Shown here in pieces: positions 34,236-57,625 of a stretch of DNA of 61,783 nucleotides (the stretch's first letter is position 1; the number at the start of each line of letters is the position of its first letter). Made by a program: the position numbers and the translations under genes. The stretch covers positions 1-61,783 of the forward strand of contig JAFXLG010000028.1 of the NCBI GenBank assembly GCA_017531305.1, read 5' to 3'. The notes below the pieces were generated by a model. It made no database searches and was not told the DNA's origin. It saw only the letters and a program-made list of their open reading frames with translations. The stretch comes from Alistipes sp. (GTDB lineage: Bacteria; Bacteroidota; Bacteroidia; Bacteroidales; Rikenellaceae).

Positions 34236-36524
34236 ATGGTTCGTAAACGATCGGATGTTGACGTAAAAAGCGAGATGTATCAGAGGGTGAAGTGGCTCTA
34301 TGCCACCTTCATCATCTTTGGCATCGGCGTGTTCGTGCGTCTGTTGTGGGTGCTCTTCTTCAGCGTGGAGATTGCCCACAATGCCGAGCGTCTGGAGGAG
34401 CGTATCTTTATCCCCGATTCGATCTATTCGCGCCGAGGCTCTATCTTGGCACGTAGTGGTGAGCCGTTGGCGACCTCGCTTTTGCGATATAGGGTTGATT
34501 TCGATATGGCGAGTGAGGGCTTTGACTCGCTGGCTCTCTATAAGGAGCAGGTCGATACCCTCTCGAAGTTGCTCTCAGGCTTCTTCAAGGATCGCACTGC
34601 GGCAGAGTATAGCCGTGCCATGATCAAGGCGCATGATGACCATTACAAAGTCATCTATCGTAAAGATACCAACGTCTTGCGCAACGAAGGCTTCTTTGCC
34701 CGCGTGTGGGACATGTTGCGTAGGGATGAGTGGAAGACGGTGAAGCTCTACGATACCATCCGCGACCATAGACCTGTGGCGATTTTGCCACGTGAGGTAG
34801 ATTATAACGAGTGGCAGACGCTCAAAAAATACCCCATCCTGAATTGGAATCTGGGTATGACCTATCATCTGGAGACCACCGATCAACGAGTCTATCCCTA
34901 CAACGAGCTTGGTCGCCGCACGTTGGGTTTGGTGGGCGATAAGGGTAATTACGGTATCGAGGCATATTATCGCGATATTCTGGAGGGTACCGATGGCTAT
35001 AATCTGCGTCAGCGCATTGCCCCTGGATTCTCCACCGTGGTGCATCATAAGGATAATGTCGATGCCGAGGATGGTATGGATCTGGTTACCACTCTGGATG
35101 TGGAGATACAGCATATTGCCGATGCTGCCTTGCGCCGACAGATGACAGCGCAGAATGCCATTTGGGGTACTGCCATGGTAATGGAGGTTGAAACGGGCGA
35201 CCTGTTGGCGTTGGTGAATCTTGGCGAGACCAAGGAGCGTAGCGGAGTCTATTATGAGAAGGAGAACTACGCCTTCAAACGCCGTATCGAGCCAGGCTCT
35301 ACATTCAAGTTGGCGGCGGCTTTGGCTCTGGTCGAGGATTGCGGTCATGGACTTGATTATAAACATCGCACCAATAAAGGTCGCAGAACTCAGGTGGGTA
35401 GCGCATTTATCACCGATGACCATCCTATACGCCGTGCCGATGGCACTATTGTAGATACCATTGATCTGAAGACTGCTATTGCGCAATCTTCGAATCTCTA
35501 TTTTGCCGAGTCGATATACGATAATTATAAGGCGAATAAGGCTCGTTACCATAAATTCCTCACCGAGGAGTTGCATTTGGGCGAGATGCTCGGCTTCGAG
35601 GCTATGGAGGAGGCGAAGCCCAAGATCCACGATCCTAAGGATTGGTCGGCTGCGACTCTGCCCAATATGGGTTATGGCTACGGTTTCGATATTCCGCCAA
35701 TCCGTACATTGGTGCTCTATAACGCCATTGCCAACGGTGGTCGTATGGTTGCTCCGCGCCTGATCAAGGAGGTTCGCCGAGGCGAGGATGTGGTGCAGGA
35801 GTTTGGCGTGGAGGTTATTGATGAAGCTATCTGCTCGGCAGAGTCTCGCCAGATTATCCATGAGGCACTCTTGGAGACTGCCCGTACGGGTACTACCAAA
35901 ACCTTCTTCACCGACACCACAGCCTATCGCGTGGCATCGAAGACAGGTACAGCCAATGTGGCGCAGAATGGCACAGGAGGCGGTGCGACCTATGCTGAGA
36001 AATACTATTTGGGTAGCGTGGTGGCATACTTCCCTGCCGACAAACCCAAATATACGGTGCAGGTTTCGATCCACACCCAGCGCGGACGAGGTGTCACCTA
36101 TGGTGGTCCTCTGGCAGGACCTGTGGTGAGGGATATCGTGCGTTATATTTATTTTAGAGATGAAGATTGGCATCAGCAGATTGCCCAAACAGATAAGGAG
36201 TATTATCCGCCAACGGTCAAGGGTGGCTCGATAGCCAACGTAAGACGTGTGGCAGATAAATTCTCGCCTCGTGTGTCGTTCACCGATCGTGAGGGTTGGG
36301 GCGTGGCTCGTGCCGATACGTTGCGAAATATAAATGTCAAAACCATAGAGGACAACTCGCTCATGCCCAATGTCGTGGGTATGGGACTCAAGGATGCTCT
36401 CTACATCTTGGAGAGCCGAGGCTTGAGGGTGCAGTTCTCGGGCAAGGGTAGTGTCCGCCAGCAAAGTATTCCTGTCGGAGCAAAGATCTCGGCAGGGGCT
36501 TCGGTGAGTCTCACGTTGCGTTAG
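34236..36524 (+). CDS. ftsI: Septal peptidoglycan transpeptidase FtsI (PBP3) with PASTA domain
   Basis: A 762-residue class B penicillin-binding protein. One membrane segment (~20-45), a dimerisation/pedestal region (IYSRRGSILAR), then the transpeptidase with SxxK Ser355 (EPGSTFKLA), SSN at 418-420 and KTG at 569-571 (ASKTGTAN). A PASTA domain occupies about 710-762 (MPNVVGMGLKDALYILE). It crosslinks septal peptidoglycan with FtsW. The length with one PASTA domain is normal for Bacteroidota. Confidence 0.96.
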   Translation: MVRKRSDVDVKSEMYQRVKWLYATFIIFGIGVFVRLLWVLFFSVEIAHNAERLEERIFIPDSIYSRRGSILARSGEPLATSLLRYRVDFDMASEGFDSLALYKEQVDTLSKLLSGFFKDRTAAEYSRAMIKAHDDHYKVIYRKDTNVLRNEGFFARVWDMLRRDEWKTVKLYDTIRDHRPVAILPREVDYNEWQTLKKYPILNWNLGMTYHLETTDQRVYPYNELGRRTLGLVGDKGNYGIEAYYRDILEGTDGYNLRQRIAPGFSTVVHHKDNVDAEDGMDLVTTLDVEIQHIADAALRRQMTAQNAIWGTAMVMEVETGDLLALVNLGETKERSGVYYEKENYAFKRRIEPGSTFKLAAALALVEDCGHGLDYKHRTNKGRRTQVGSAFITDDHPIRRADGTIVDTIDLKTAIAQSSNLYFAESIYDNYKANKARYHKFLTEELHLGEMLGFEAMEEAKPKIHDPKDWSAATLPNMGYGYGFDIPPIRTLVLYNAIANGGRMVAPRLIKEVRRGEDVVQEFGVEVIDEAICSAESRQIIHEALLETARTGTTKTFFTDTTAYRVASKTGTANVAQNGTGGGATYAEKYYLGSVVAYFPADKPKYTVQVSIHTQRGRGVTYGGPLAGPVVRDIVRYIYFRDEDWHQQIAQTDKEYYPPTVKGGSIANVRRVADKFSPRVSFTDREGWGVARADTLRNINVKTIEDNSLMPNVVGMGLKDALYILESRGLRVQFSGKGSVRQQSIPVGAKISAGASVSLTLR

Positions 36525-36568: not shown

Positions 36569-38026
36569 ATGAAAACATTGAGTTCATTGCTGCTCTCGAC
36601 AGCAGTAGATTCATTCATAACTGAGGCAGATCCTACGATCAGGGCTTTGCAGTATGACTCTCGCCGTGTGGAGGCGGGTGACTGCTTCTTTGCCATCAGG
36701 GGTACGCAGTCCGATGGACACGATTACATATCTTCGGCAATCGCTTCGGGCGCTTCAGCCATTGTCTGTGAGCAGTTGCCGCAGCAGCAGGTTGCGGGCG
36801 TGAGCTATGTTGTCGTTGCAGACAGCAATGCGGCTATGGCAGATATGGCGGCAGCCTTTTATGACTACCCTTCGGAGCAGTTGCAGCTGGTGGGCGTGAC
36901 AGGTACCAATGGCAAGACCACTACCGCTACGTTGCTCTACGACCTGCATCGCAAGATGGGTTACGAGGCGGGATTGATCTCTACGGTGGTCTATAGGATT
37001 GGCGAAAGAGAGGTAGAATCGACCCATACCACTCCCGATGTGGTACGCCTGAATGCCATGTTGCGCGAGATGGTCGATATTGGTTGTCAATACTGCTTCA
37101 TGGAGGTCTCTTCGCACTCTATCGTGCAGCAGCGCATACGAGGTCTGCATTTCCGCGGAGCTATTTTCAGCAACATTACACACGACCATCTGGATTACCA
37201 TGGCACCTTTGCCGAGTATATCAAGGCTAAGAAGCTGTTGTTCGATTCGCTGGGCAAGGATGCCTTTGCGTTGGTGAATATAGATGATCGCAATGGCGAA
37301 GTGATGTTGCAGAATACGGTGGCGAAGCCATATCGTTATTCGCTTCGCTCGATGGCGGATTTTAAGTGCAAAATTCTGGAGATGCACTTCGATGGAATGC
37401 TCCTGAATGTAGATTCGCAGGGGGTGTGGGTTGGATTTTTGGGACGTTTCAATGCCTATAATCTCTTGGCGGTCTATGGCACGGCGGTGTTGCTTGGTGC
37501 CGAGCCTTTGGAGGTGTTGCAGGCGTTGAGTTCGCTCCATTCGGTGAGTGGACGCTTCGAACCTATGCGCTCTGAGCGAGGGCTTACCGCCATTGTCGAT
37601 TACGCTCATACGCCCGATGCGTTGGAGAATGTTATCTCGACCATCAACGAGATCCGCACCCCCAATCAGCGTCTGATTGTGGTTGCAGGATGCGGTGGCG
37701 ATCGAGACCGTACAAAACGCCCTAAGATGGGGCAGATCATTTCGCGCGAAGCCGATATGGCGATCTTCACTTCGGATAATCCGCGTACCGAAGATCCCGA
37801 GGCGATCTTAGATGAGATCGTTCAAGGTGCCGAGATCGGCAAGCAGTATCTGCGCATCAGCGACCGCCGCGAGGCGATACGTGCTGCGGTGATGTTTGCT
37901 CAGGGCGAGGATATAATTTTGGTTGCGGGTAAGGGACACGAGACCTACCAGATTATCGGTAAGACCAAACACCATTTCGATGACAGAGAGCAGCTTAAGG
38001 AGGCTTTCGAAACATTTAATAAGTAG
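36569..38026 (+). CDS. murE: UDP-MurNAc-tripeptide synthetase MurE
   Basis: A 485-residue Mur ligase. It adds the third amino acid to UDP-MurNAc-L-Ala-D-Glu. The UDP-binding domain carries YDSRRVEAGDCFFAI; the ATP loop is GTNGKTTT at 112-119; the central domain has THTTPDV and EVSSHS; DNPR at residues 403-406 is the signature for meso-diaminopimelate rather than lysine. C-terminal GKGHETYQ is also typical. It follows ftsI by 44 nt and precedes mraY by 15 nt. Confidence 0.97.
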   Translation: MKTLSSLLLSTAVDSFITEADPTIRALQYDSRRVEAGDCFFAIRGTQSDGHDYISSAIASGASAIVCEQLPQQQVAGVSYVVVADSNAAMADMAAAFYDYPSEQLQLVGVTGTNGKTTTATLLYDLHRKMGYEAGLISTVVYRIGEREVESTHTTPDVVRLNAMLREMVDIGCQYCFMEVSSHSIVQQRIRGLHFRGAIFSNITHDHLDYHGTFAEYIKAKKLLFDSLGKDAFALVNIDDRNGEVMLQNTVAKPYRYSLRSMADFKCKILEMHFDGMLLNVDSQGVWVGFLGRFNAYNLLAVYGTAVLLGAEPLEVLQALSSLHSVSGRFEPMRSERGLTAIVDYAHTPDALENVISTINEIRTPNQRLIVVAGCGGDRDRTKRPKMGQIISREADMAIFTSDNPRTEDPEAILDEIVQGAEIGKQYLRISDRREAIRAAVMFAQGEDIILVAGKGHETYQIIGKTKHHFDDREQLKEAFETFNK

Positions 38027-38041
38027 AAACGAAACGAAAAT

Positions 38042-39289
38042 ATGCTATACTCACTTTTTCACTATTTAGAAGAGACTTATGACCTTCCAGGTGCGGGAAT
38101 GTTCCAATATATCTCGTTCCGTTCGGCAGTTGCCATCATCTTGGCATTGCTGATCACGATTCTGTTTGGACGAAATATCATCCGTATGCTACAACGCCAT
38201 CAGATCGGCGAGGAGATTCGTGATCTGGGGCTTGAGGGTCAGCTCTCGAAGAAGGGAACACCTACCATGGGTGGTGTGCTGATTCTTTTGGCGGTGCTGG
38301 TGCCTATGCTTCTGTTGGGTAAGTTGGATAATATCTACATCCAGCTGATGCTTATCTCTACCGTCTGGTTGGGTACTCTGGGCTTTCTGGACGATTATAT
38401 CAAGACCTTTCGCCACAATAAAGATGGTCTGAAGGGTAAGTTCAAGATCGTAGGTCAGGTAGGTCTGGGCATTATCGTGGGTACGGTGATGTGCTTCTCG
38501 CAGGAGGTTGTGATCCGCGAAAAGGTCGAAGCTCCCGTACAGAAGATCTATATGAACGAGGATGGTCAGACCATCGTGGAGCATATGCAACCACGAGCTG
38601 TGATCGACTCTTCGCCTCAGAAGACCACCAAAACCACCATCCCATTCATCAAGGATAATGAGTTTGACTATGGCTGGTTGGTGGGCGGCAACGACCTGCT
38701 GACATGGTTGTTGTATATCGCCATCGCCATTTTTGTGGTCACGGCGGTCTCCAACGGAGCCAATCTGACGGATGGTCTGGATGGTCTGCTTACGATGACC
38801 TCGGTGCCGATAGTCATGGTGTTGGGTACGTTGGCATATCTTTCGGGACATATCATCTATGCCGACTATCTGAACATTATGTATATCCCCGAATCTGCCG
38901 AGCTGGTGGTCTTTGCTGCAGCTTTGGTGGGTGCGCTGATGGGCTTTTTGTGGTATAATTCGTTCCCAGCGCAGATCTTCATGGGCGATACAGGATCGTT
39001 GGCTATCGGAGGTATCATTGCCGTCTTTGCGCTCTGTATCCGCAAGGAGCTTTTGTTGCCACTTATGTGCGGAATTTTCTTGGCGGAGGCTCTCTCGGTG
39101 ATGGTGCAGGTGAGCTACTTTAAGCACACCAAACGTAAATATGGCGAGGGTAGGCGCATCCTGCTCATGGCACCTCTGCATCACCATTACCAGAAGCGAG
39201 GTGTCTTCGAGACCAAGATCGTCATGCGATTCTTCATCGTTTCGATGTTGTTGTGTGCTGTGACGCTCGTTACCCTTAAGATGCGATAG
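38042..39289 (+). CDS. mraY: Phospho-MurNAc-pentapeptide transferase MraY
   Basis: A 415-residue membrane enzyme that forms lipid I on undecaprenyl phosphate. [21 protein letters not shown] (the Asp pair), NLTDGLDGL and PLHHHYQ are the family motifs. An enlarged loop (about residues 155-215, including [12 protein letters not shown]-like hydrophilic sequence and [10 protein letters not shown]) is usual in Bacteroidota MraY. About ten membrane segments. Confidence 0.97.
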
Positions 39290-39464: not shown

Positions 39465-40826
39465 ATGAAAAAGATAGTAGTTTTAGGAGGAGGAATCAGC
39501 GGCTATGGCTCGGCTGTATTGGCTAAGAAGCAGGGCTTCGATGTCTTGCTGAGCGATGCTGGTCATCTGGCAGATAAATATCGTAAGGTACTCGATGAGT
39601 GAGGCGTAGAGTATGAGCAGGGCGGTCACACCATGGAGCGACTGCTCGCCGCCGATGAGGTGATTAAGTCACCGGGCATACCCGAGAAGGCACCTGCTGT
39701 AATGGCTATCAGAGAGAAGGGTATCCCCGTGATCTCGGAGATGGAGTTTGCCTCGCGCTATATGGGGCGTGCCAAGACCATCTGTATCACAGGTTCCAAC
39801 GGTAAGACTACCACCACCTCGCTCATCTATAAGATCATGCGCGAGGCGGGCATGAATGTCTCTTTGGGTGGCAACATCGGCGAGAGCTTCGCCTACTCGG
39901 TGGCAACCGCTGAGTACGATTGGTATGTGCTGGAGCTTAGCTCGTTCCAGTTGGACGGCATGTATCGCTTCAAAGCCGATGTGGCGGTGCTGATGAACAT
40001 CACGCCCGACCATCTGGATAGATATGACTATAAGTTCCAGAATTATATAGACTCCAAGATGCGCATCATCCGCAATCAGAATACCCGTTCAGCATTTGTC
40101 TATTCGGCAGATGACGAGGTGATCGCGGCGGAGCTTCCGAAGTATGATTTGCCGATGCGTCAGTTGCCTTTTGCCGCTAAGTGTGCGGTAGCCAGCTCTT
40201 CTGGAGATGCCTTTTTGACCGAGGATGGCGAGTTTACTACCCGCGTGGGTAAAAAGTCGCTTACGATAGACGTTTCGAAGCTTAAAATCAAGGGCTTGCA
40301 TAACTCCTACAACTCTATGGCGGCAGCTTTGGCTACCTTAGCGGCGGGTGTTGAGCCAGAGCAGGTGGCTGAGTCGATCTACGACTTCTCGCCCGTTGAG
40401 CATCGTTTGGAGCCAGCTGGTGAACGCGATGGCGTGGAGTGGATCAACGACTCGAAGGCTACCAATGTCGATTCGGTGTGGTATGCTTTGGAGAGCATGA
40501 CTCGCCCTGTGGTATGGATCGCAGGAGGTACCGATAAGGGCAACGATTACGAACCCCTCAAGCCTTTTGCCCGCCAAAAGGTGAAGGCTCTGATCTGCAT
40601 GGGCGTGGATAACGAGAAACTCCTCAAGGAGTTCACAGGCGTAGTCCCCACCATTGTCTCAACCTCATCTTTGGAGGAGGCGATGCAGTCGGCTCAGAGA
40701 CTTTCGGAGTCGGGCGATACGGTATTGCTCTCGCCTGCGTGCGCAAGTTTCGACCTCTTCAAGAGCTATGAACATCGTGGCAAGCTCTTTAAGGAGTGGG
40801 TTGTAGAGAATGTTTTGAAGAAGTAA
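39465..40826 (+). CDS. murD: UDP-MurNAc-L-Ala:D-Glu ligase MurD, cut by in-frame TGA at codon 46
   Basis: The frame from ATG 39465 encodes a complete MurD of 453 positions: N-terminal Rossmann-type UDP-binding loop GGGISGYGS, ATP loop GSNGKTTT at 110-117, NITPDHLDRY, EHRLE and WINDSKATN, then GGTDKGNDY. It adds D-glutamate to UDP-MurNAc-L-alanine, an essential step. But codon 46 (39600-39602) is TGA, inside the N-terminal domain between LDE and GVEYEQGG. Alignment to the family continues with no gap, so only one base differs from a sense codon. Restart at ATG 39633 would lose the UDP-binding domain. No second copy lies in the window. Either the stop is read through, or it is a mutation or sequence error. 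Confidence 0.93.
39600..39602 (+). other. In-frame TGA within murD
   Basis: Context gat gag TGA ggc gta. A single transition would restore sense: CGA (Arg) by C-to-T or TGG (Trp) by G-to-A. The next base is G. No selenocysteine context is expected for MurD. Upstream and downstream parts share one frame (39465 and 39633 are both in phase). Confidence 0.95.
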
Positions 40827-40847
40827 CGGAGCAACTTTTTTCGTGTT

Positions 40848-42188
40848 ATGGCGGAAGTAGATTATAGCAAACATATCAGACGTGTGGATGATGAGCCGCA
40901 GCAAAATGCAACAAATGTTGCAGACAATGCTACGGATGATGTTGCCGTGCGCCCCGATATGGTGCAGGAGAGTGGTTTTCTTAGCTTCGTCAAGAGCTTT
41001 TTTGGCGGAGATAAGGTGTTGTGGGTAATTATCATTGCGCTTATGACCATCTCGGTGCTTGTGGTCTATTCCTCTACTGCCAAGATGGCGTATAATCCTC
41101 GTTCGGCTGCCACCACCATGCAATTCCTCAAGACTCAGTTCTTCACTCTGGGTATCAGCATCGTGGCATTGTGTATTGCGCATCGACTCAATAGTGCCTT
41201 CTATCGCAGATGGGTAAGGCACATGTTCTGGCTTGCCGTGTTGGCAACTTTGGCGGTATATTTCACGGGACAAACCACCAATGGCGCAGCGCGTTGGATC
41301 TCGATTTTTGGATTCCAATTCCAGCCTTCCGAGATGCTCAAACTCTGTACGGTAGCCTATCTGGCTTTGGCTTTGGCTAAACGTCAATCCACCATCCGTA
41401 CGTTGCAGATCGTGCCGAGCATGAAGTTCTGGACTTGGAATACTCCCAAGCAGATGCGTATCATCAAGGAGGGTTTCATCCCCTTGTTCCTGCCCATTAT
41501 CATTGCCTGTCTGGTGATCTTCCCCGCCCATACATCTTCGGCGGTGCTGGTGTTCGGCATGTCGCTGGTGATGCTCTACATCGGACGTGTAAGGTGGGTG
41601 GAGCTTTTCCGCATCCTGAAGTGGGCGTTGGTGGGTGTTGCGTTTGTCTTTGTGTTGGGACTCGGACGTAGCCATACTGCGGGAGGGCGTGTCTCGACAT
41701 GGATTGAGGTGTGGACTACCGACCGCACGGAGGTTGATGTGGATGAGCTGAGCGATACCGAGCGTTCGATGATTGCCATACATAATGGCGGTATCATGGG
41801 GCGTGGAGCAGGTCAGAGTGCCGTCAGAGTCGAGATGACTCACCCCGAAAGTGATTACGCCTTTGCCTTCTTTGTCGAGGAGTATGGTTTGGGCTTGTCG
41901 ATAATTCTGATTGCGCTCTATGTGTGGATCTTCTTCCGCGCCATCGAGATCTTTGAGCGATGTCCCAAAAAGTTCCCTGCCATGCTTTCGTTGGGTGTGG
42001 CACTTCTGATTACGATGCAGGCTCTGCTGCATCTGATGGTGACGGTAAATATAATCCCCGAAACGGGACAAACCCTGCCACTGATCTCGCGTGGAGGCTC
42101 TTCGATGTTGTTTACCTCGATTGGTCTGGGCATTATCCTTAGCGTGAGTCGCCAAAATGCCGAAGGCTCATACGGTGACGAGCAGTAG
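40848..42188 (+). CDS. ftsW: Septal peptidoglycan glycosyltransferase FtsW
   Basis: A 446-residue SEDS-family protein with about ten membrane segments after a ~60-residue hydrophilic N-terminal extension. Family signatures include NGAARWISIFGFQFQPSE, VEEYGL and the late NIIPETGQTLPLISRGGSS block. It polymerises glycan strands together with FtsI. It starts 21 nt after murD. In most Bacteroidales murG follows directly; here murG is 8.8 kb away. Confidence 0.96.
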   Translation: MAEVDYSKHIRRVDDEPQQNATNVADNATDDVAVRPDMVQESGFLSFVKSFFGGDKVLWVIIIALMTISVLVVYSSTAKMAYNPRSAATTMQFLKTQFFTLGISIVALCIAHRLNSAFYRRWVRHMFWLAVLATLAVYFTGQTTNGAARWISIFGFQFQPSEMLKLCTVAYLALALAKRQSTIRTLQIVPSMKFWTWNTPKQMRIIKEGFIPLFLPIIIACLVIFPAHTSSAVLVFGMSLVMLYIGRVRWVELFRILKWALVGVAFVFVLGLGRSHTAGGRVSTWIEVWTTDRTEVDVDELSDTERSMIAIHNGGIMGRGAGQSAVRVEMTHPESDYAFAFFVEEYGLGLSIILIALYVWIFFRAIEIFERCPKKFPAMLSLGVALLITMQALLHLMVTVNIIPETGQTLPLISRGGSSMLFTSIGLGIILSVSRQNAEGSYGDEQ

Positions 42189-47466: not shown

Positions 47467-49002
47467 ATGGTTATCAGCACACATACAGGAGCTTTGGTCG
47501 GTATCGGTGCTCTCGGCGTGAGAGTCGAGGTGAGCATCACGGGTGGCGGCTTGGGGCTCTTTATTGTGGGGTTGCCCGATAATGCCGTTAAGGAGAGCGA
47601 GCAACGTGTGCGTGCCGCCTTCGAAAATTCGGGTTTTAGGATGACCGCCCGTAAATGTGTGGTGAATCTTGCTCCTGCCGATCTGCGTAAGGAGGGTTCG
47701 GGCTTCGATTTGCCTATCGCAGTGGCTATCCTTGCCGCTACCGAGCAGATTCCTACTGAGGGATTGGACGCTTCGGCTTTTGTCGGCGAGCTTTCGCTCG
47801 ATGGCAGCGTCAGGGGTGTCAAGGGCATTTTGCCAATCACTATCGCCGCCAAGGAGCAGGGGCTAAAGCGCATCTTCGTGCCACGCGAAAATGGCGATGA
47901 GGCTTCGGTTGTGGATGGCATAGAGGTCTATGGCGTTGGCTCACTGAGCGAGATCACGGCACTTCTGTCGGGGCAGATGGAGTTGCAACCTGTGGCAGAG
48001 GAGCGCGATCTGGAGCAGATTTGTGAGCCGCAATATGCCGATGACTTTGCCGATGTCAAGGGTCAGCGTCACGTCAAGCGTGCGTTGGAGATTGCTGCTG
48101 CGGGAGGTCACAATGTCATCATGATAGGTCCCCCGGGGTCGGGTAAGACCATGCTGGCACGCAGGATGCCTTCGATCCTGCCACCGATGAGTATGGCAGA
48201 GGCGTTGGAGACCACCAAGATCCACTCCGTAGCGGGTAAGTTGGGTAGGCATCAGGGCTTGATCAAGGAGCGTCCGTTCCGTTCTCCGCACCATCTTGCT
48301 TCGCCCGTTGCGTTGATTGGCGGTGGACAGTCGCCCCAACCAGGTGAGGTCTCGTTAGCACACAACGGAGTGCTGTTTTTGGATGAGTTGCCCGAATTCG
48401 GGCATGGAGTGCTGGAGGTGTTGCGCCAGCCGTTGGAGGATAAACATATCTCCATCGTCAGGGCAAAATATGCGGTGGATTATCCATCGAACTTCACTTT
48501 GGTGGCTTCGATGAATCCATGCCCTTGCGGATACTATAATCACCCCACCAAGGAGTGTACCTGCTCGCAAGGTGCGGTGAAACGATATCTGGGACGTATC
48601 TCAGGACCTTTGATGGATCGAATAGATCTGCATGTTGAGGTTACGTCCGTCAGCAGCGAGGAGCTATCTTCTTCTGTGGCAGAGGAGAGCAGCCGCGAGG
48701 TTAGAGAGAGGGTGAAGCGCGCCCGCGAAGTGCAGGCACGCCGTTTTGAGGGTACAGAGATCTATACCAATACGATGATGACCTCTTCGATGTTGCGCCG
48801 ATTCTGCCCGCTGGATGAGACCTCGCGCCGATTGTTGGATATGGCTATGGAGCGATTGCAGCTCTCGGCACGTGCCTACGACCGTATAATCAAGGTTGCG
48901 CGTACGATTGCCGACCTGAGTGGTGCAGAGAATATCTCGGCAGAGCATATCACCGAGGCTATAACCTATCGCTCGCTCGATAGAGATAATTGGGGCAAGT
49001 GA
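47467..49002 (+). CDS. comM: ComM/YifB-family AAA+ ATPase
   Basis: A 511-residue protein with an N-terminal Lon-protease-like fold (GLPDNAVKESEQRV; PADLRKEGSGFDLPIA) and a Mg-chelatase-type AAA+ domain with Walker A GPPGSGKT at 221-228, LFLDELPEF (Walker B) and zinc Cys in NPCPCGYYNH...CTCS. The C-terminal ISAEHITEAITYRSLDR is the usual end. ComM promotes branch migration during transformation; near comF and priA this fits a DNA-uptake theme. It is the only complete gene in the window ending in TGA (49000-49002), and the frame beyond that TGA stays open into the next gene. Confidence 0.95.
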   Translation: MVISTHTGALVGIGALGVRVEVSITGGGLGLFIVGLPDNAVKESEQRVRAAFENSGFRMTARKCVVNLAPADLRKEGSGFDLPIAVAILAATEQIPTEGLDASAFVGELSLDGSVRGVKGILPITIAAKEQGLKRIFVPRENGDEASVVDGIEVYGVGSLSEITALLSGQMELQPVAEERDLEQICEPQYADDFADVKGQRHVKRALEIAAAGGHNVIMIGPPGSGKTMLARRMPSILPPMSMAEALETTKIHSVAGKLGRHQGLIKERPFRSPHHLASPVALIGGGQSPQPGEVSLAHNGVLFLDELPEFGHGVLEVLRQPLEDKHISIVRAKYAVDYPSNFTLVASMNPCPCGYYNHPTKECTCSQGAVKRYLGRISGPLMDRIDLHVEVTSVSSEELSSSVAEESSREVRERVKRAREVQARRFEGTEIYTNTMMTSSMLRRFCPLDETSRRLLDMAMERLQLSARAYDRIIKVARTIADLSGAENISAEHITEAITYRSLDRDNWGK

Positions 49003-49041
49003 TGGCGTTTTGAGATAGATTTGGAAGTAATACACGACTGT

Positions 49042-49986
49042 ATGAAATACGATGTTTTTATATCACATTCGAGTGCTGATCTTGAATTGTCGGAGAAGAT
49101 ATATGATTATCTGCAGGAGCAGGGGATCAAATGCTGGATTGACTCCCGTAATGTGACAGGTCTCTATGCCAGATCCATTATCGAGGGAATCGAGCAGTCG
49201 GAGATGATGGTCCTGATCTACTCTGAGAAGTCAAATAGCTCTGCTCACGTTGAGAATGAGATTGACAACGCATTCTGCTTGGGAAAGATGATTATCCCGT
49301 TTCGTATAGAGGGGACTCCCTATTCGACAGTGTTGCGTTACTATCTGAATAAGAGTCATTATGTCGATGGTATGCCCCAGCCGCTTGATGCATTGGAGCA
49401 GTTGCGAGACCAGATTAGACGCAATATGTCGGAGCAGAAGAAGTTGGAGACTTTGGATGAAGCTTTTAATGTCATTGCTCAATGGGCTCAGGTCGATGTA
49501 GCTCAGCTACGCGATGCTGTTAAACAATTAAAGCAACGTCCAACGTCAGTCAATGAGAAGGAGGATGAGTTTGATAAGTTGCTCAATGAGTTTGTTGAGC
49601 GAGAATTTTCAGGCGAGGGTGATGAGATCAATCGTACGGAAAATGTCGAGGAATACAAGTCTGAGGCTTCTAATCAGAGTAACGATAATGAAGATACCTC
49701 AAGTAGATATGAAATACTTCAAAATGCAGCAGGGGAGATCATGCTTATCATTCACGCCCGCGAGGGTGAGCCTGATAATCCGCGCATAGTATATGATGGT
49801 GGGGACGAAGCATTGCTCTATCGTAACAGAGAGTGCTCAATTATTTTAGAAGGCATAGCTGAAAAGGCAAGAGAACCTTTTTTGAAAGTTGAACAAGTGC
49901 TTGTTGTAGAAGTGAAGAATGATGATGTAGCTCGTGAGTATAAGGTTCCGCTGCGTAAGATAAAATCTTTACAGTCAATATATTAA
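49042..49986 (+). CDS. TIR-domain protein with unknown C-terminal region
   Basis: A 314-residue protein. Residues 1-~130 form a bacterial TIR domain: YDVFISHSSADLELSEKI, CWIDSRNV (BB loop), and SSAHVENEIDNA, in which Glu73 fits the catalytic glutamate of NADase-type TIRs. An acidic, Gln/Glu-rich linker (~170-225) leads to a C-terminal domain of ~90 residues of no recognised family. Such proteins may act in antiphage defence or in host interaction, but there is no partner such as ThsA nearby. Its frame is continuous with comM apart from the TGA. Codon usage is slightly more AT-rich than flanking genes. Confidence 0.85.
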   Translation: MKYDVFISHSSADLELSEKIYDYLQEQGIKCWIDSRNVTGLYARSIIEGIEQSEMMVLIYSEKSNSSAHVENEIDNAFCLGKMIIPFRIEGTPYSTVLRYYLNKSHYVDGMPQPLDALEQLRDQIRRNMSEQKKLETLDEAFNVIAQWAQVDVAQLRDAVKQLKQRPTSVNEKEDEFDKLLNEFVEREFSGEGDEINRTENVEEYKSEASNQSNDNEDTSSRYEILQNAAGEIMLIIHAREGEPDNPRIVYDGGDEALLYRNRECSIILEGIAEKAREPFLKVEQVLVVEVKNDDVAREYKVPLRKIKSLQSIY

Positions 49987-51036: not shown

Positions 51037-52137
51037 ATGAAAAGAGTTATACTATCGGGAGGCGGCACGGGAGGACACATATACCCCGCCGTGGCGGTTG
51101 CCGAAGCGTTGAAACGTAAACATCGAGATAATGTGGAGATCCTCTTCGTGGGTGCCGAAGGCAAGATGGAGATGGAGAAGATTCCACAGCTCGGATATAA
51201 TATTGTGGGATTGCCGATTTTGGGTCTGCAACGCCGCCTTGAGCCTAAAAACCTGCTTGTACCATTTAAGGTCGTAAGCAGTGTAAACAAGGCGCGTAAG
51301 ATTATTCGCGATTTCTCTGCCGATGTGGTCGTAGGCTTTGGAGGCTATGCCAGCGCACCCGTCTTGTGGGCTGCGCAGGGTATGGGTGTGCCTACGATCA
51401 TACAGGAGCAGAACTCCTATGCTGGATTGACCAACAAACTCCTCTCGCGCCGTGCCAAACGTATCTGCGTGGCGTATGAGGATATGGATCGTTATTTCCG
51501 CCGCGACCGTATCATCATGACGGGAAATCCCCTGCGAGGAAATTTCGCTCCAAGCGTGGGCAAGAGTGCTCAGGCGTTGGAGTATTACGGTCTGAACGCA
51601 GAGTTGCCCATCCTGCTTGTGGTAGGTGGCTCGCTCGGTACACGTACGCTCAACGAGATGATGAAGAGCTGGATCCTTCAGCTCGATGGTGCCGATGCTC
51701 CTGTGCAGGTAATATGGCAGACAGGTAAATACTACGAGAAGGAGATGCAGGCGTTTTTAGCTGAGCATCCTACGCGTAACATCTGGCAAGGCGCATTTAT
51801 CGAGCGCATGGATTATGCCTATGAGGTTGCTGATCTGGTTGTTTCGCGCAGTGGAGCATGTACCGTTTCGGAGCTTTCGCTCATCGGTAAGCCTACGCTA
51901 TTTATCCCTTCGCCCAACGTGGCAGAGGATCATCAGACCAAGAATGCTATGGCACTGGTCGAGCGCGATGCGGCAGAGTATGTAGCCGACAAGGATGCTG
52001 TGGCTCAAGGCATGGAGCGAGCTTTGGCTCTGTTGTCGGACGCGGAGCGACTTAAGACCTTGAGCTACAATATACTCAAACTCGGTGTCAAGGATGCTGC
52101 CGAGCGTGTTGTGCGCCAGATCGAGAAGGAGTGGTAA
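51037..52137 (+). CDS. murG: UDP-GlcNAc:lipid I transferase MurG
   Basis: A 366-residue GT28 glycosyltransferase that turns lipid I into lipid II at the inner face of the membrane. N-terminal SGGGTGGHIYPA, FGGYAS, QEQNSYAG, VVGGSLG and the C-terminal SRSGACTVSEL...PSPNVAEDHQTKNA are the family motifs. Length normal. It resumes the dcw cluster after the inserted block. Confidence 0.97.
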   Translation: MKRVILSGGGTGGHIYPAVAVAEALKRKHRDNVEILFVGAEGKMEMEKIPQLGYNIVGLPILGLQRRLEPKNLLVPFKVVSSVNKARKIIRDFSADVVVGFGGYASAPVLWAAQGMGVPTIIQEQNSYAGLTNKLLSRRAKRICVAYEDMDRYFRRDRIIMTGNPLRGNFAPSVGKSAQALEYYGLNAELPILLVVGGSLGTRTLNEMMKSWILQLDGADAPVQVIWQTGKYYEKEMQAFLAEHPTRNIWQGAFIERMDYAYEVADLVVSRSGACTVSELSLIGKPTLFIPSPNVAEDHQTKNAMALVERDAAEYVADKDAVAQGMERALALLSDAERLKTLSYNILKLGVKDAAERVVRQIEKEW

Positions 52138-52228: not shown

Positions 52229-53608
52229 ATGAAGGAGCAAAAGATATATTTCATGGGTATTGGCGGTATAGGTATGAGTGCTTTGGCGCGTTATTTCCTG
52301 CACGAAGGGTGGCAGGTGGCGGGTTATGACCGTACCGAAACCCCTCTTACACATGAACTTGCGGCAGAAGGTGCTGCCGTGAATTATGAGGATTCGGTGG
52401 AGGCTATCCCCGAGGCTTTTCGCTCGGCGGAGGATACCATCGTGGTATATACTCCTGCCGTTCCGCAGGATCATCCTCAGATGCAGTTCTTTGTGCAGGG
52501 AGGCTTCAAAGTGGAGAAACGCTCACAGATGTTGGGGCATCTCTCTGCGGGTAAATATGTGATGGCGGTGGCTGGCACACATGGCAAGACCACTACCTCT
52601 ACGCTGATTGCGTGGCTCAATTACTCGATGCAGGAGGATGGCAACGCCTTTTTGGGTGGCATATCGAAGAATTTTGGAGGCAACATGGTCTTAGGTAGCG
52701 GCAAGCGACTTGCAGTCGAGGCAGATGAGTTTGACCGTTCATTCCTCAGACTCAAGCCCGATGTGGCTGTGATTACGGCTGTGGCGGCAGATCATCTGGA
52801 TATCTATGGTACGTTCGAAGCCGTTGTGGAGGCTTTCGGGCAGTTTGCAGCGTTGATCAAGCAGGGTGGTCATCTGATCCTCAAGCATGGCGTAAATATC
52901 CCACTTCCAGAGGGTATCTCCATCTGGCGATATAGCTACGATGAGCCTTGCGACTTCTATGCTCGCAACGTGCGTTTGCAGCAGGGCGGTTATTACCTTT
53001 ACGATGTGGTTACGCCCGATGGCGTGATTGAGGATTGTACGCTCGGCATCCCAGGGTGGGTGAATATCGAAAATTCGGTGGCTGCCGTGGCTTCTATGTG
53101 GTGCGCAGCCAAAGCTGAGGGTAAGGCTTTGGACAAGGAACTTCTGAAGCAAGGACTCGCTTCGTATCAGGGAGTTAAACGCCGTTTCGAGTTCTATGTC
53201 AACACTCCTCGTCAGGTCTATATGGACGACTATGCCCACCATCCTGAGGAGCTGGAGGCTACCATCACATCGGTGCGTAAGATGTTCCCCGAGCGTAGGT
53301 TGATGGCTATCTTCCAGCCTCATCTCTATTCTCGTACCAAGGATCTGTATCTGGAGTTTGCTGAGGCGTTGTCGCATGCCGATGAGGTGGTTTTGGTGCC
53401 GATCTATCCTGCGCGTGAGTTGCCTGTGGAGGGTGTTTGTTCGGAGATGATTGGCGAGCATGTCACCAAGCCATGGGTTGTGCGCGAGCGCGAGGAACTG
53501 GCAGGTTATCTCGCCGAGGCAGATACCGATGTTGTGGTGAGCTTCGGTGCGGGAAATATTGATGTCTATTGTCAGGCTATAGCCGATGTTTTGGCTAAGA
53601 AGGCGTAG
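52229..53608 (+). CDS. murC: UDP-MurNAc:L-alanine ligase MurC
   Basis: A 459-residue Mur ligase that starts the peptide stem. GIGGIGMSALARYF is the UDP-binding loop, GTHGKTTTSTLI the ATP loop, EADEFDRSFL and TAVAADHLDIYG the central motifs, and DDYAHHPEELEATI the C-terminal signature. It lies 91 nt after murG and 75 nt before ftsQ. Confidence 0.97.
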   Translation: MKEQKIYFMGIGGIGMSALARYFLHEGWQVAGYDRTETPLTHELAAEGAAVNYEDSVEAIPEAFRSAEDTIVVYTPAVPQDHPQMQFFVQGGFKVEKRSQMLGHLSAGKYVMAVAGTHGKTTTSTLIAWLNYSMQEDGNAFLGGISKNFGGNMVLGSGKRLAVEADEFDRSFLRLKPDVAVITAVAADHLDIYGTFEAVVEAFGQFAALIKQGGHLILKHGVNIPLPEGISIWRYSYDEPCDFYARNVRLQQGGYYLYDVVTPDGVIEDCTLGIPGWVNIENSVAAVASMWCAAKAEGKALDKELLKQGLASYQGVKRRFEFYVNTPRQVYMDDYAHHPEELEATITSVRKMFPERRLMAIFQPHLYSRTKDLYLEFAEALSHADEVVLVPIYPARELPVEGVCSEMIGEHVTKPWVVREREELAGYLAEADTDVVVSFGAGNIDVYCQAIADVLAKKA

Positions 53609-54813: not shown

Positions 54814-56298
54814 GTGGAAAAGAAGAATTACATCGTAGCTGTCGATGTGGGTACATCAGAAGTGGTGGTTGCCGTAGGATCGATAGCTGATAACGGAGAG
54901 CTTCACATCGAAGCCGTTGTGGCAGAGCCTACCACAGGTATGTCGGCAGGCATGGTAGATAATAGTCAAAGCGTGGGGGATGCCTTGTGCCGAGCTCGTG
55001 ATAAAGCTCAGGAGCTGACAGGCGTAGCCATCACCGATGCCTATGTATCTATCTCAGGCAAGTTTGTGCGTTGTGCCCGTTATACCGATCATGTCTTTGT
55101 GATGGATTCAGAGAACCGCATTTCGCGCGGCGATCTGAAGGCATTGAGTGATCGTATGCACAATGTCAAGGCTTCCGATGGAGAGATCATCATGGATCTC
55201 TATCCTACAACCTATAAGGGCGACACAGGCTCAGAGATGCCTAACCCTGTGGGTTGCTATAGCAAGCAGCTCAGCTCGACCTACAACTTCATCCTTTGTG
55301 AGCGTATGGCTAAGGATCGTTTGATGCGTGTCTTCTTGGATGCCAAGATCAAGATCCGCAACCTCTACGCTGGTGCAGCCATCGTGTCGCGTGCCGTAGT
55401 GAACGAGGATGAGATGAACGATGGAGTTGCAGTGGTAGATATCGGTAGCGGCTTGACCGATGTGGCGGTATATTATGGCGGTATTCTGCGTTATATCGCA
55501 TCTATTCCGTTGGGAGGTGCGGCTATCAACTCCGATATTCACATCTACGACTCTCTGATCCCTGCCAAGACCATCGAGAGTCTGAAGTGCAGCTATGGCT
55601 CGGCTTTGGTCGAGGAGACTCCCGATCAGCTGATTGAGATGCGCAATCGTGGTCGCTCGATTAAGCCTATCCAGCGTTTGAATCTTGCGGCTGTGATCGA
55701 GGCGCGTATGACCGATATCGCCGAGTATGTCTGGAATGAGATCCGCGAGTCGGGCTATGCCAAGAAGCTGGCTGCAGGTATCGTTCTGACAGGTGGCGGT
55801 GCCAGCCTGATGAATGCCGATAAGCTCTTCCAGAAGGTTACAGGTCAGGAGGTGCGTGTATCGTGTGCCGAGATGGGTCTTTCGACTGAGGAGCAGGCGA
55901 AGGTTGCCTCTCCATCGAAGACTTTGGCGGTGGCTCTCTTGCTCAAGGGTATGGAGGCAGGAGCTTGCCCTGTGGGTATGTTGCAAGGCTCAGCACCTGT
56001 GAAGCCTGCGGTTAATCAGTACGAGGAGAAGAGATCAATCCAGAACTCTGTGCAGGAGGTACGTCCGTTAGAGGAGGAGCCTCTGAAACCTCAGTCTAAG
56101 ACTTCGGTTGAGGTGGAGCCTAAGAACGATGAGGGCGGCAACGAAGGCGATAGCTGGAATGGTGTGACCGAGGATATCCCTCAGACAGGGAATAAGACTA
56201 AGGGTCGTTTACAGAAATTACTGGATAAGCTGAAGGGCTCGTTGGATGATGCATTCCGCAATCCAGATGAGGGCGCAGATGGTGATGATGATTATTAA
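54814..56298 (+). CDS. ftsA: Division ATPase FtsA
   Basis: A 494-residue actin-like protein that anchors FtsZ. VAVDVGTSEVVVAVG is the phosphate-1 loop, VVDIGSGLTDVAVY the phosphate-2 loop, GIVLTGGGASLM the adenosine motif. Beyond the core (~400) comes an acidic, variable region, then an amphipathic segment RLQKLLDKLKGSLDDAF that should bind the membrane, and a final acidic tail. GTG start at 54814, 32 nt after ftsQ. Confidence 0.96.
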   Translation: MEKKNYIVAVDVGTSEVVVAVGSIADNGELHIEAVVAEPTTGMSAGMVDNSQSVGDALCRARDKAQELTGVAITDAYVSISGKFVRCARYTDHVFVMDSENRISRGDLKALSDRMHNVKASDGEIIMDLYPTTYKGDTGSEMPNPVGCYSKQLSSTYNFILCERMAKDRLMRVFLDAKIKIRNLYAGAAIVSRAVVNEDEMNDGVAVVDIGSGLTDVAVYYGGILRYIASIPLGGAAINSDIHIYDSLIPAKTIESLKCSYGSALVEETPDQLIEMRNRGRSIKPIQRLNLAAVIEARMTDIAEYVWNEIRESGYAKKLAAGIVLTGGGASLMNADKLFQKVTGQEVRVSCAEMGLSTEEQAKVASPSKTLAVALLLKGMEAGACPVGMLQGSAPVKPAVNQYEEKRSIQNSVQEVRPLEEEPLKPQSKTSVEVEPKNDEGGNEGDSWNGVTEDIPQTGNKTKGRLQKLLDKLKGSLDDAFRNPDEGADGDDDY

Positions 56299-56314: not shown

Positions 56315-57625
56315 ATGAAGGAAGATCTTTTGAATGAGTTGTCGGAGCCAAAGCAGACTCCATCAATCATAACAGTCATAGGTGTTGGCGGAGCAGGAGG
56401 TAATGCTCTGGATTATATGTGGAAAGTCGGTATCAAGGATGTCAATTTCTTGGCTTGTAATACCGATCAGAGAGCATTGAATAACCTGAGCCTGCCTGAG
56501 GAGTGTAAAATCGTCTTGGGCGATGGTCAGGGCGCGGGTAACGATCCTGAGCGTGGTCGTCAGCTGGTGACCGAGTCTTTGGAGCAGATCCGTGACTATG
56601 TGTTGTCGAAGGGTACTCGTATGGTCTTTATCACCGCAGGTATGGGTGGTGGTACAGGTACAGGAGCTTCACCCGTTATCGCCAAGATGGCGCATGACGA
56701 GGGCTTGCTGACTGTAGCCAACGTTACATCACCTCTTTTGGTCGAGGGTCCTATGCGCTGCAAGCAGGCTGCTAAGGGTATCGAGGAGTTGCGCCAGTAT
56801 GCCGATTCGTTGCTTGTGATCAACAACGAGAGCATCCTTGAGATGTATGGTAAGTTGCCGATCCGTTCGGCTTTTGGTAAGGCAGACGACATCTTGGCTG
56901 CTGCAACTAAAGGTATTGCCGAGTTGGTGACTGTTTCGCACGCCTTTGTACGTGTCGATTTTGCCGATTTGGATCGCGTGATGCGCGGTAGTGGTCGCGC
57001 ACACATGGGTGTCGCTTCTGCCGAGGGTGAGGGTAGAGCCAAGGAGGCTGCGCGCCGTTCGTTGTGCTCGCCATTGCTTAACGATAAGGAGATCATCGGT
57101 GCCAAGAAGATTCTGATCAATATCTCGGCTGCCGATGTCGATAAGGTGCAGTATTCTGAGATGATGGATGTCTTGACCTACATTCAGGATTACGCCAGCT
57201 ATGTGGATGATGATGGCGTGGAGCACCATGCAGATATCATCTGGGGTATGAGTTCGAAGCCTATGGCTGAGGATGAGTTGGAGGTTGTGGTTGTTGCCAC
57301 AGGCTTCAGCGAGGGCGAGTACCTCAAACATATCGAGGATGTTCCCGATGATATAGAGTTGGTAGCGGAAGAGTCTGCCGAGCCTCAGAAGGAGACCTCT
57401 AAGGTGCCTGAGGTTGCACCGCAGCCACCTGTGCGCCGTTCAAATAATCTGCCACCTGTTTTGGAGCGTAAGAGCTCGCGTTATACCGACATCCCCACAG
57501 GAGCTGCATATCTCAGACGCGGTGTGAAATTTGTCAAGGATAACACTTCTCGCCGTAAGGAGGTCCTTGCCGATGATCGTTCGGATAGCAAGGTTGCAGA
57601 GAAGGATCTTTTCGGAACTAATTAA
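56315..57625 (+). CDS. ftsZ: Tubulin-like division protein FtsZ
   Basis: A 436-residue GTPase forming the Z ring. GVGGAGGNA is the nucleotide loop, GMGGGTGTGA at 109-118 the tubulin signature, and NNESILEMYG with FGKADDILAAATKGI the T7 region. An unstructured linker from ~345 leads to the C-terminus EKDLFGTN. It follows ftsA by 16 nt and precedes gldE by 8 nt. Confidence 0.98.
   Translation: MKEDLLNELSEPKQTPSIITVIGVGGAGGNALDYMWKVGIKDVNFLACNTDQRALNNLSLPEECKIVLGDGQGAGNDPERGRQLVTESLEQIRDYVLSKGTRMVFITAGMGGGTGTGASPVIAKMAHDEGLLTVANVTSPLLVEGPMRCKQAAKGIEELRQYADSLLVINNESILEMYGKLPIRSAFGKADDILAAATKGIAELVTVSHAFVRVDFADLDRVMRGSGRAHMGVASAEGEGRAKEAARRSLCSPLLNDKEIIGAKKILINISAADVDKVQYSEMMDVLTYIQDYASYVDDDGVEHHADIIWGMSSKPMAEDELEVVVVATGFSEGEYLKHIEDVPDDIELVAEESAEPQKETSKVPEVAPQPPVRRSNNLPPVLERKSSRYTDIPTGAAYLRRGVKFVKDNTSRRKEVLADDRSDSKVAEKDLFGTN

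Follow-up and report, generated by a model that had tools for sequence, protein, structure and literature searches.

An in-frame TGA at a tryptophan codon of murD in a draft Alistipes genome most probably reflects a sequence error or a transient variant

Single stop codons inside bacterial genes that are otherwise under selection, with dN/dS below 1 around the stop, have been described by Belinky et al. (2021; PMC7918605). Among the sources of such stops named there are annotation artefacts, sequencing errors, pseudogenes and premature stops in functional genes; the in-frame stops are argued to be widespread and short-lived, and a TGA readthrough of 6% in prfB+ Bacillus subtilis is cited. A reassignment of UGA to tryptophan is listed for the Mycoplasmatales, Entomoplasmatales, Hodgkinia, Nasuia, Zinderia and Stammera among bacteria (PMC8629427), and gene conversion of release factors is the topic of a separate study (PMC4530459). 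In Escherichia coli, the G24A (Hirsh) change in tRNA-Trp facilitates UGA readthrough (PMC13092985).

The in-frame stop considered here lies in murD of a draft genome of an uncultured, Alistipes-like gut bacterium (2.05 Mb in 72 contigs, 86.8% complete), on a contig (C10) that as a whole constitutes the window analyzed (61,783 bases). The nearest named relatives are drafts titled Alistipes sp. and Rikenellaceae bacterium, many of them of ruminant gut origin. The closest one, RGIG941 (L036), shares 82% DNA identity over 9.2 kb. The nearest genome of the genus has 86% identity within the murD DNA, and its murD does not contain the stop. The murD frame and the genes around it are arranged as follows:

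34236 to 36524, + strand: penicillin-binding-protein-like gene, open, scoring below the curated cut-off
36569 to 38026, + strand: murE, open
38042 to 39289, + strand: mraY, open
39465 to 40826, + strand: murD frame (UDP-N-acetylmuramoyl-L-alanine--D-glutamate ligase), 453 codons before the terminal TAA, including the internal TGA
39600 to 39602, + strand: in-frame TGA at codon 46, read from the sequence and placed in an alignment column
39633 to 40826, + strand: downstream open frame from the first in-frame ATG past the stop, 397 aa
40848 to 42188, + strand: ftsW-like gene, open, scoring below the curated cut-off
47467 to 49002, + strand: yifB (Mg-chelatase-like AAA ATPase), the sole TGA-ended gene among the hand-picked genes of the window
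51037 to 52137, + strand: murG, open
52229 to 53608, + strand: murC, open
54814 to 56298, + strand: ftsA, open
56315 to 57625, + strand: ftsZ, open, 294 bits versus a cut-off of 295.2

Translation of positions 39465 to 40826 yields a single murD frame whose sole internal stop is the TGA at codon 46, found in the context GAG TGA GGC; under the standard bacterial code, the gene is thus not an uninterrupted frame. When the stop is read through, the murD model TIGR01087 matches positions 39471 to 40802 with 398.2 bits, well above its curated cut-off of 211.95, and covers profile positions 1 to 439 of 441 with one TGA inside. Translation, the codon itself and the profile match all agree with the sequence-only reading, which had described one frame broken by this TGA only. 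That reading had also seen MurD homology on both sides of the stop. This holds for the part after the stop, which alone scores 385.2 bits, whereas the 45 residues before it, taken alone, gave no TIGR01087 match at an E value of 0.001; for them, the homology is borne out by alignment, with 97.8% identity to the nearest relative. A shorter working MurD translated from the ATG at 39633 was set aside, since this restart would drop the first 56 residues including the N-terminal GGGISGYGS loop, which is kept by the aligned relatives with a complete N-terminus, and would probably lead to a loss of MurD function.

Flanked by mraY and the ftsW-like gene, murD belongs to the division and cell-wall cluster, which is otherwise intact as had been claimed: murE, mraY, the ftsW-like gene, murG, murC, ftsA and ftsZ are all open. 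A second murD, for which a search had been proposed, is not present in the assembly above the TIGR01087 cut-off; the five other matches to this model all fall below it, with at most 82.5 bits.

The residue at the stop column was determined in an alignment of 51 relatives (L036-L086) out of 80 fetched loci, the other 29 having been dropped before counting. In all 46 aligned records titled Alistipes or Rikenellaceae bacterium the column is tryptophan, always encoded by TGG, which answers the question of the residue at position 46 raised by the sequence-only reading. The five aligned records titled Tidjanibacter all carry glutamate (GAG), and tryptophan is therefore not strictly required at this murD column in the wider group. 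The tryptophan column speaks against a selenoprotein UGA, which appears implausible here. Among all one-step nonsense changes in an intact relative's murD, those from tryptophan to TGA account for 3.5% when equal rates are assumed and for 10% with a fourfold weight on transitions.

Selection on the gene was assessed against RGIG941. The dN/dS of murD is 0.037 before and 0.065 after the stop, and the values of six neighbor genes range from 0.021 to 0.122. Besides the stop, murD departs at two positions from the columns that are invariant in the 46 records, both times from alanine to serine, while the other aligned members show zero to two departures each from otherwise invariant columns. The low dN/dS within the range of the neighbors and the few departures suggest that murD either still works or lost its function only a very short time ago, and an old pseudogene was rejected on the same grounds.

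To place the stop against a background, 180 genomes of the genus were queried per gene for murD, rpoB and rpoC, with totals given as table sums. Internal stops were found in one of 150 murD matches listed (173 in all), the one being the genome studied here, in one of 140 rpoB matches, and in three of 150 rpoC matches listed (153 in all). Pooled over the matches listed for the three genes, this amounts to 5 of 440 (two TGA, two TAA and one TAG). Two of the rpoC cases are a clean in-frame TAA and a clean in-frame TAG in two other genomes of the genus (L295 in G001, L296 in G119), while the third, a TGA in G123, sits at the extreme end of the match and may be a frameshift. The rpoB case comes from the very bin that contains the interrupted murD: on contig C47 (4,682 bases), a TAA stands at match residue 70, where the other copy has tyrosine. 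The two rpoB copies of the bin, at C47:633-4472 (L293) and, intact, at C43:966-4805 (L292), share 85.7% DNA identity. As C47 is closer than C43 to the sister genome G100 (murD contig L036), with 93.5 and 86.9% identity, respectively, C47 looks foreign and the bin slightly mixed. In-frame stops of all three types therefore occur in other indispensable genes of comparable drafts. Since RNA polymerase is indispensable and tRNA-Trp should not decode TAA, such stops in drafts need no special biology. Two further cases, in genomes of the same taxonomic order, lie outside these counts, namely a TGA within an acyl-CoA synthetase match of G050 (L231), a gene outside the base-rate sets, and a TAG within a weak partial murD match (G039:C38:29440-30024) that was left out of the base rate.

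Other mid-gene stops in this genome were sought by scanning 61 stretches with a total of 1,026,212 bases (3,436 N), about half of the assembly, for coding potential. The scan returned 24 stops between coding-like stretches, 22 of which (18 TAA and 4 TAG) are by eye the junctions of neighboring genes, mostly with a new start just downstream. The remaining two lie within genes and are both TGA: the one in murD and one at C6:14601-14603 (L158) in an AMP-binding acyl-CoA synthetase, at a position occupied by glycine in 24 of 24 relatives. That the two TGAs stand at different residues argues against one new meaning of UGA. Matches of the genome to PF00501 number four, of which the acyl-CoA synthetase contains an internal stop and three do not; none of its 26 matches to PF00005 has one. 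Training a coding-potential scan on mixed relatives led to 154 hits, mostly antisense shadow frames, and this version was not used as a control, and a first homology scan was likewise swamped by such frames. After filtering, the homology scan covered 95,547 codons of this genome and 301,185 codons of relatives, with a skew toward the neighborhood of murD. Here, 13 relative queries supported the murD stop, whereas each of the other 12 stops in this genome (13 in total) and each of the 36 in relatives had the support of a single query and was by eye a shadow frame or a gene junction. The acyl-CoA synthetase stop was not recovered by the filtered homology scan.

We consider it probable, at roughly 0.72, that the TGA is an isolated single-base nonsense change at a tryptophan codon that represents a consensus or assembly error, or else a minority or short-lived variant, and that it is absent from most living cells of the species. 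A single base change would have turned the tryptophan codon into TGA in an otherwise normally selected murD and would have entered the contig through such an error or variant; the stop would then carry no mechanism of its own. The observations beneath this reading are the stop, the tryptophan column, the lack of a second assembled copy, the purifying selection and the genus-wide background of stops that includes this bin, and with these an error or a transient variant is the most likely status of the base at 39600. It is favored by the background of 5 in 440 matches listed with its mixture of stop types, by the TAA-bearing rpoB copy in the same bin, by the result that the only other mid-gene stop found in the 1.03 Mb scanned is a TGA at a glycine column, by the lack of decay after the stop, and by the uninterrupted murD of the nearest genome of the genus.

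Several observations point the other way. The contig is long, the cluster on it is otherwise open, and it does not look poor. A TGA at a tryptophan codon is a modest but real coincidence, given its 3.5 to 10% share of the one-step nonsense changes. Both mid-gene stops in the sampled half of the genome are TGA and none is TAA or TAG, although two are too few to weigh. As for the background, the coverage of rpoB and rpoC may differ from that of murD, the rpoB stop of the bin lies on the foreign contig and not in the main genome, and one of the three rpoC cases may be a frameshift. A base-call or assembly error had been among the options offered from the sequence alone, and with stops also present in rpoB and rpoC of the genus it remains the most likely one. 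Like the cases of Belinky et al. (2021; PMC7918605), the murD stop is a lone one whose flanking gene parts have dN/dS below 1. It differs in that the study kept stops common to at least two genomes in order to remove errors, a filter that a murD stop seen in one genome would fail.

An unlikely alternative, and the one that survives best, is that the TGA is a real and recent nonsense allele, at which the ordinary tRNA-Trp (CCA) misreads UGA and inserts the ancestral tryptophan, so that wild-type MurD would be made in reduced amount. A partial tRNA-Trp with the anticodon CCA lies at a contig edge (C43), and this fragment carries A where E. coli trpT has G24, as do nine loci from eight relatives; nine relatives had been queried, G016 was without a match, and the loci compared are L273-L276, L278-L282 and L277. 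By our numbering of position 24, this A24 would presumably match the base that the G24A (Hirsh) change gives to the E. coli UGA suppressor. In addition to A24, the tRNA-Trp of the genus has a top anticodon-stem pair capable of G-U, both unlike E. coli trpT. The genome resembles the system of the UGA-reading G24A tRNA-Trp (PMC13092985) in having UGA at a tryptophan column together with a CCA tRNA-Trp with A24 in the genus. As to the tRNA-Trp with a 4-bp anticodon stem in the same report, the top stem pair can form G-U here, so that the tRNA is no clear case of the unpinned 4-bp form. The reported 6% readthrough in B. subtilis and the argued prevalence of in-frame stops (PMC7918605) would fit a leaky allele as well, and so do the lack of a second murD in the assembly and the persistently low dN/dS. 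However, A24 is common to the genus and not special to this genome: every tRNA-Trp examined in the genus has it, yet the stop occurs in one of the 150 murD matches listed. Readthrough at this codon is a prediction from sequence. Moreover, the other mid-gene TGA stands at a glycine column, three of the four other rpoB and rpoC stops listed are TAA or TAG, for which no rescue by tRNA-Trp would be expected, and the RF2 gene is complete with its frameshift site (see below). Still more doubtful is the specific form in which the allele is real and fixed, and the essential MurD is made only through natural misreading by the A24 tRNA-Trp, without a suppressor mutation.

A true loss of murD function, with an intact copy in the unassembled 13% of the genome or in a dying or dependent lineage, is very unlikely. 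The completeness of 86.8% leaves room for such a copy, and one relative, G118, has two murD matches; yet 171 of 172 genomes of the genus with a murD match have a single one, murD shows no sign of the decay that a redundant copy would undergo (dN/dS 0.065), and murE, mraY, murG, murC, ftsA and ftsZ are retained in the cluster.

UGA functions as a stop in this genome. The RF2 gene prfB scores 453.5 bits against a cut-off of 370, covers profile positions 12 to 353 of 353 and has no internal stop, and its head contains CTTTGAC (L146:1509-1515), which we take to be the UGA-dependent programmed frameshift site of the RF2 gene. A second, weaker release-factor-family match (245 bits) at the edge of contig C41 was taken as RF1. 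No tRNA with a UCA anticodon was found in the assembly, which is 86.8% complete; 35 of 35 tRNA matches carry ordinary anticodons.

The use of TGA at gene ends was counted in mechanically derived ORF sets in which shadow frames are included. In the sampled half of the genome, the 625 ORFs of 200 aa or more include 37 with a terminal TGA, and the 43 hand-picked genes of the window include one; a second window TGA in the mechanical count may belong to an antisense frame (40665-42155). In relatives, TGA accounts for 9 of 218 stops in 19 stretches with a GC content of at most 52% and for 60 of 231 in 21 stretches above this limit, which was picked after the TGA count of this genome had been seen. 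As the share in relatives of similar GC is similar, the scarcity tracks GC and is no peculiarity of this genome. The sequence-only reading had noted this scarcity and taken it to make UGA readthrough or a low-frequency sense UGA worth testing. The scarcity itself is true for the window, but it does not support these two options, being typical of the genus at this GC content. Where a TGA-ended ORF of this genome could be compared with an ORF of a relative, five of seven share the relative's end, among them YifB, whose TGA falls where the YifB of a relative terminates with TAG. The two exceptions are an antisense shadow frame and an ORF that exceeds its relative by 45 residues. For ORFs with the other stops, the ends agree in 72 of 76 cases (TAA) and in 41 of 42 (TAG).

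With regard to yifB, its TGA is followed in the same frame by the next gene without a further stop (window 49000-49986), and readthrough would fuse both. The start of this next gene resembles a TIR domain by eye (MKYDVFISHSSAD), and no NCBIfam match was obtained for it at an E value of 1e-20. TAG is the stop of 22 of the 43 hand-picked window genes and, across the sampled half of the genome, of 185 of the 625 mechanically derived ORFs.

That UGA would be a sense codon for tryptophan here, either throughout or at a low rate in many genes, is suggested by the UGA at a tryptophan column of an essential gene and by the rarity of TGA as a stop, yet is extremely improbable given the full-length RF2 with its retained frameshift site, the five of seven TGA-ended ORFs that end with their relatives, the ordinary anticodons, the single TGA found at a tryptophan column in the 1.03 Mb scanned and the comparable TGA share in relatives of similar GC (9/218). 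Full codon reassignment is contradicted by RF2 and its frameshift site, the TGA-ended ORFs, the anticodons and the small number of mid-gene TGAs. The murD locus shares with the bacterial UGA-to-Trp codes compiled in PMC8629427 a UGA where relatives have tryptophan; unlike in those codes, one such gene was found here, RF2 and the frameshift site are kept, TGA ends genes and no UCA tRNA was detected.

Taken together, a lone stop that interrupts an essential gene in a draft assembly, even at a tryptophan column, lies within the background and is not by itself evidence of recoding. A real allele would provide a minimum estimate of natural UGA readthrough in a member of the Bacteroidota with an A24 tRNA-Trp.
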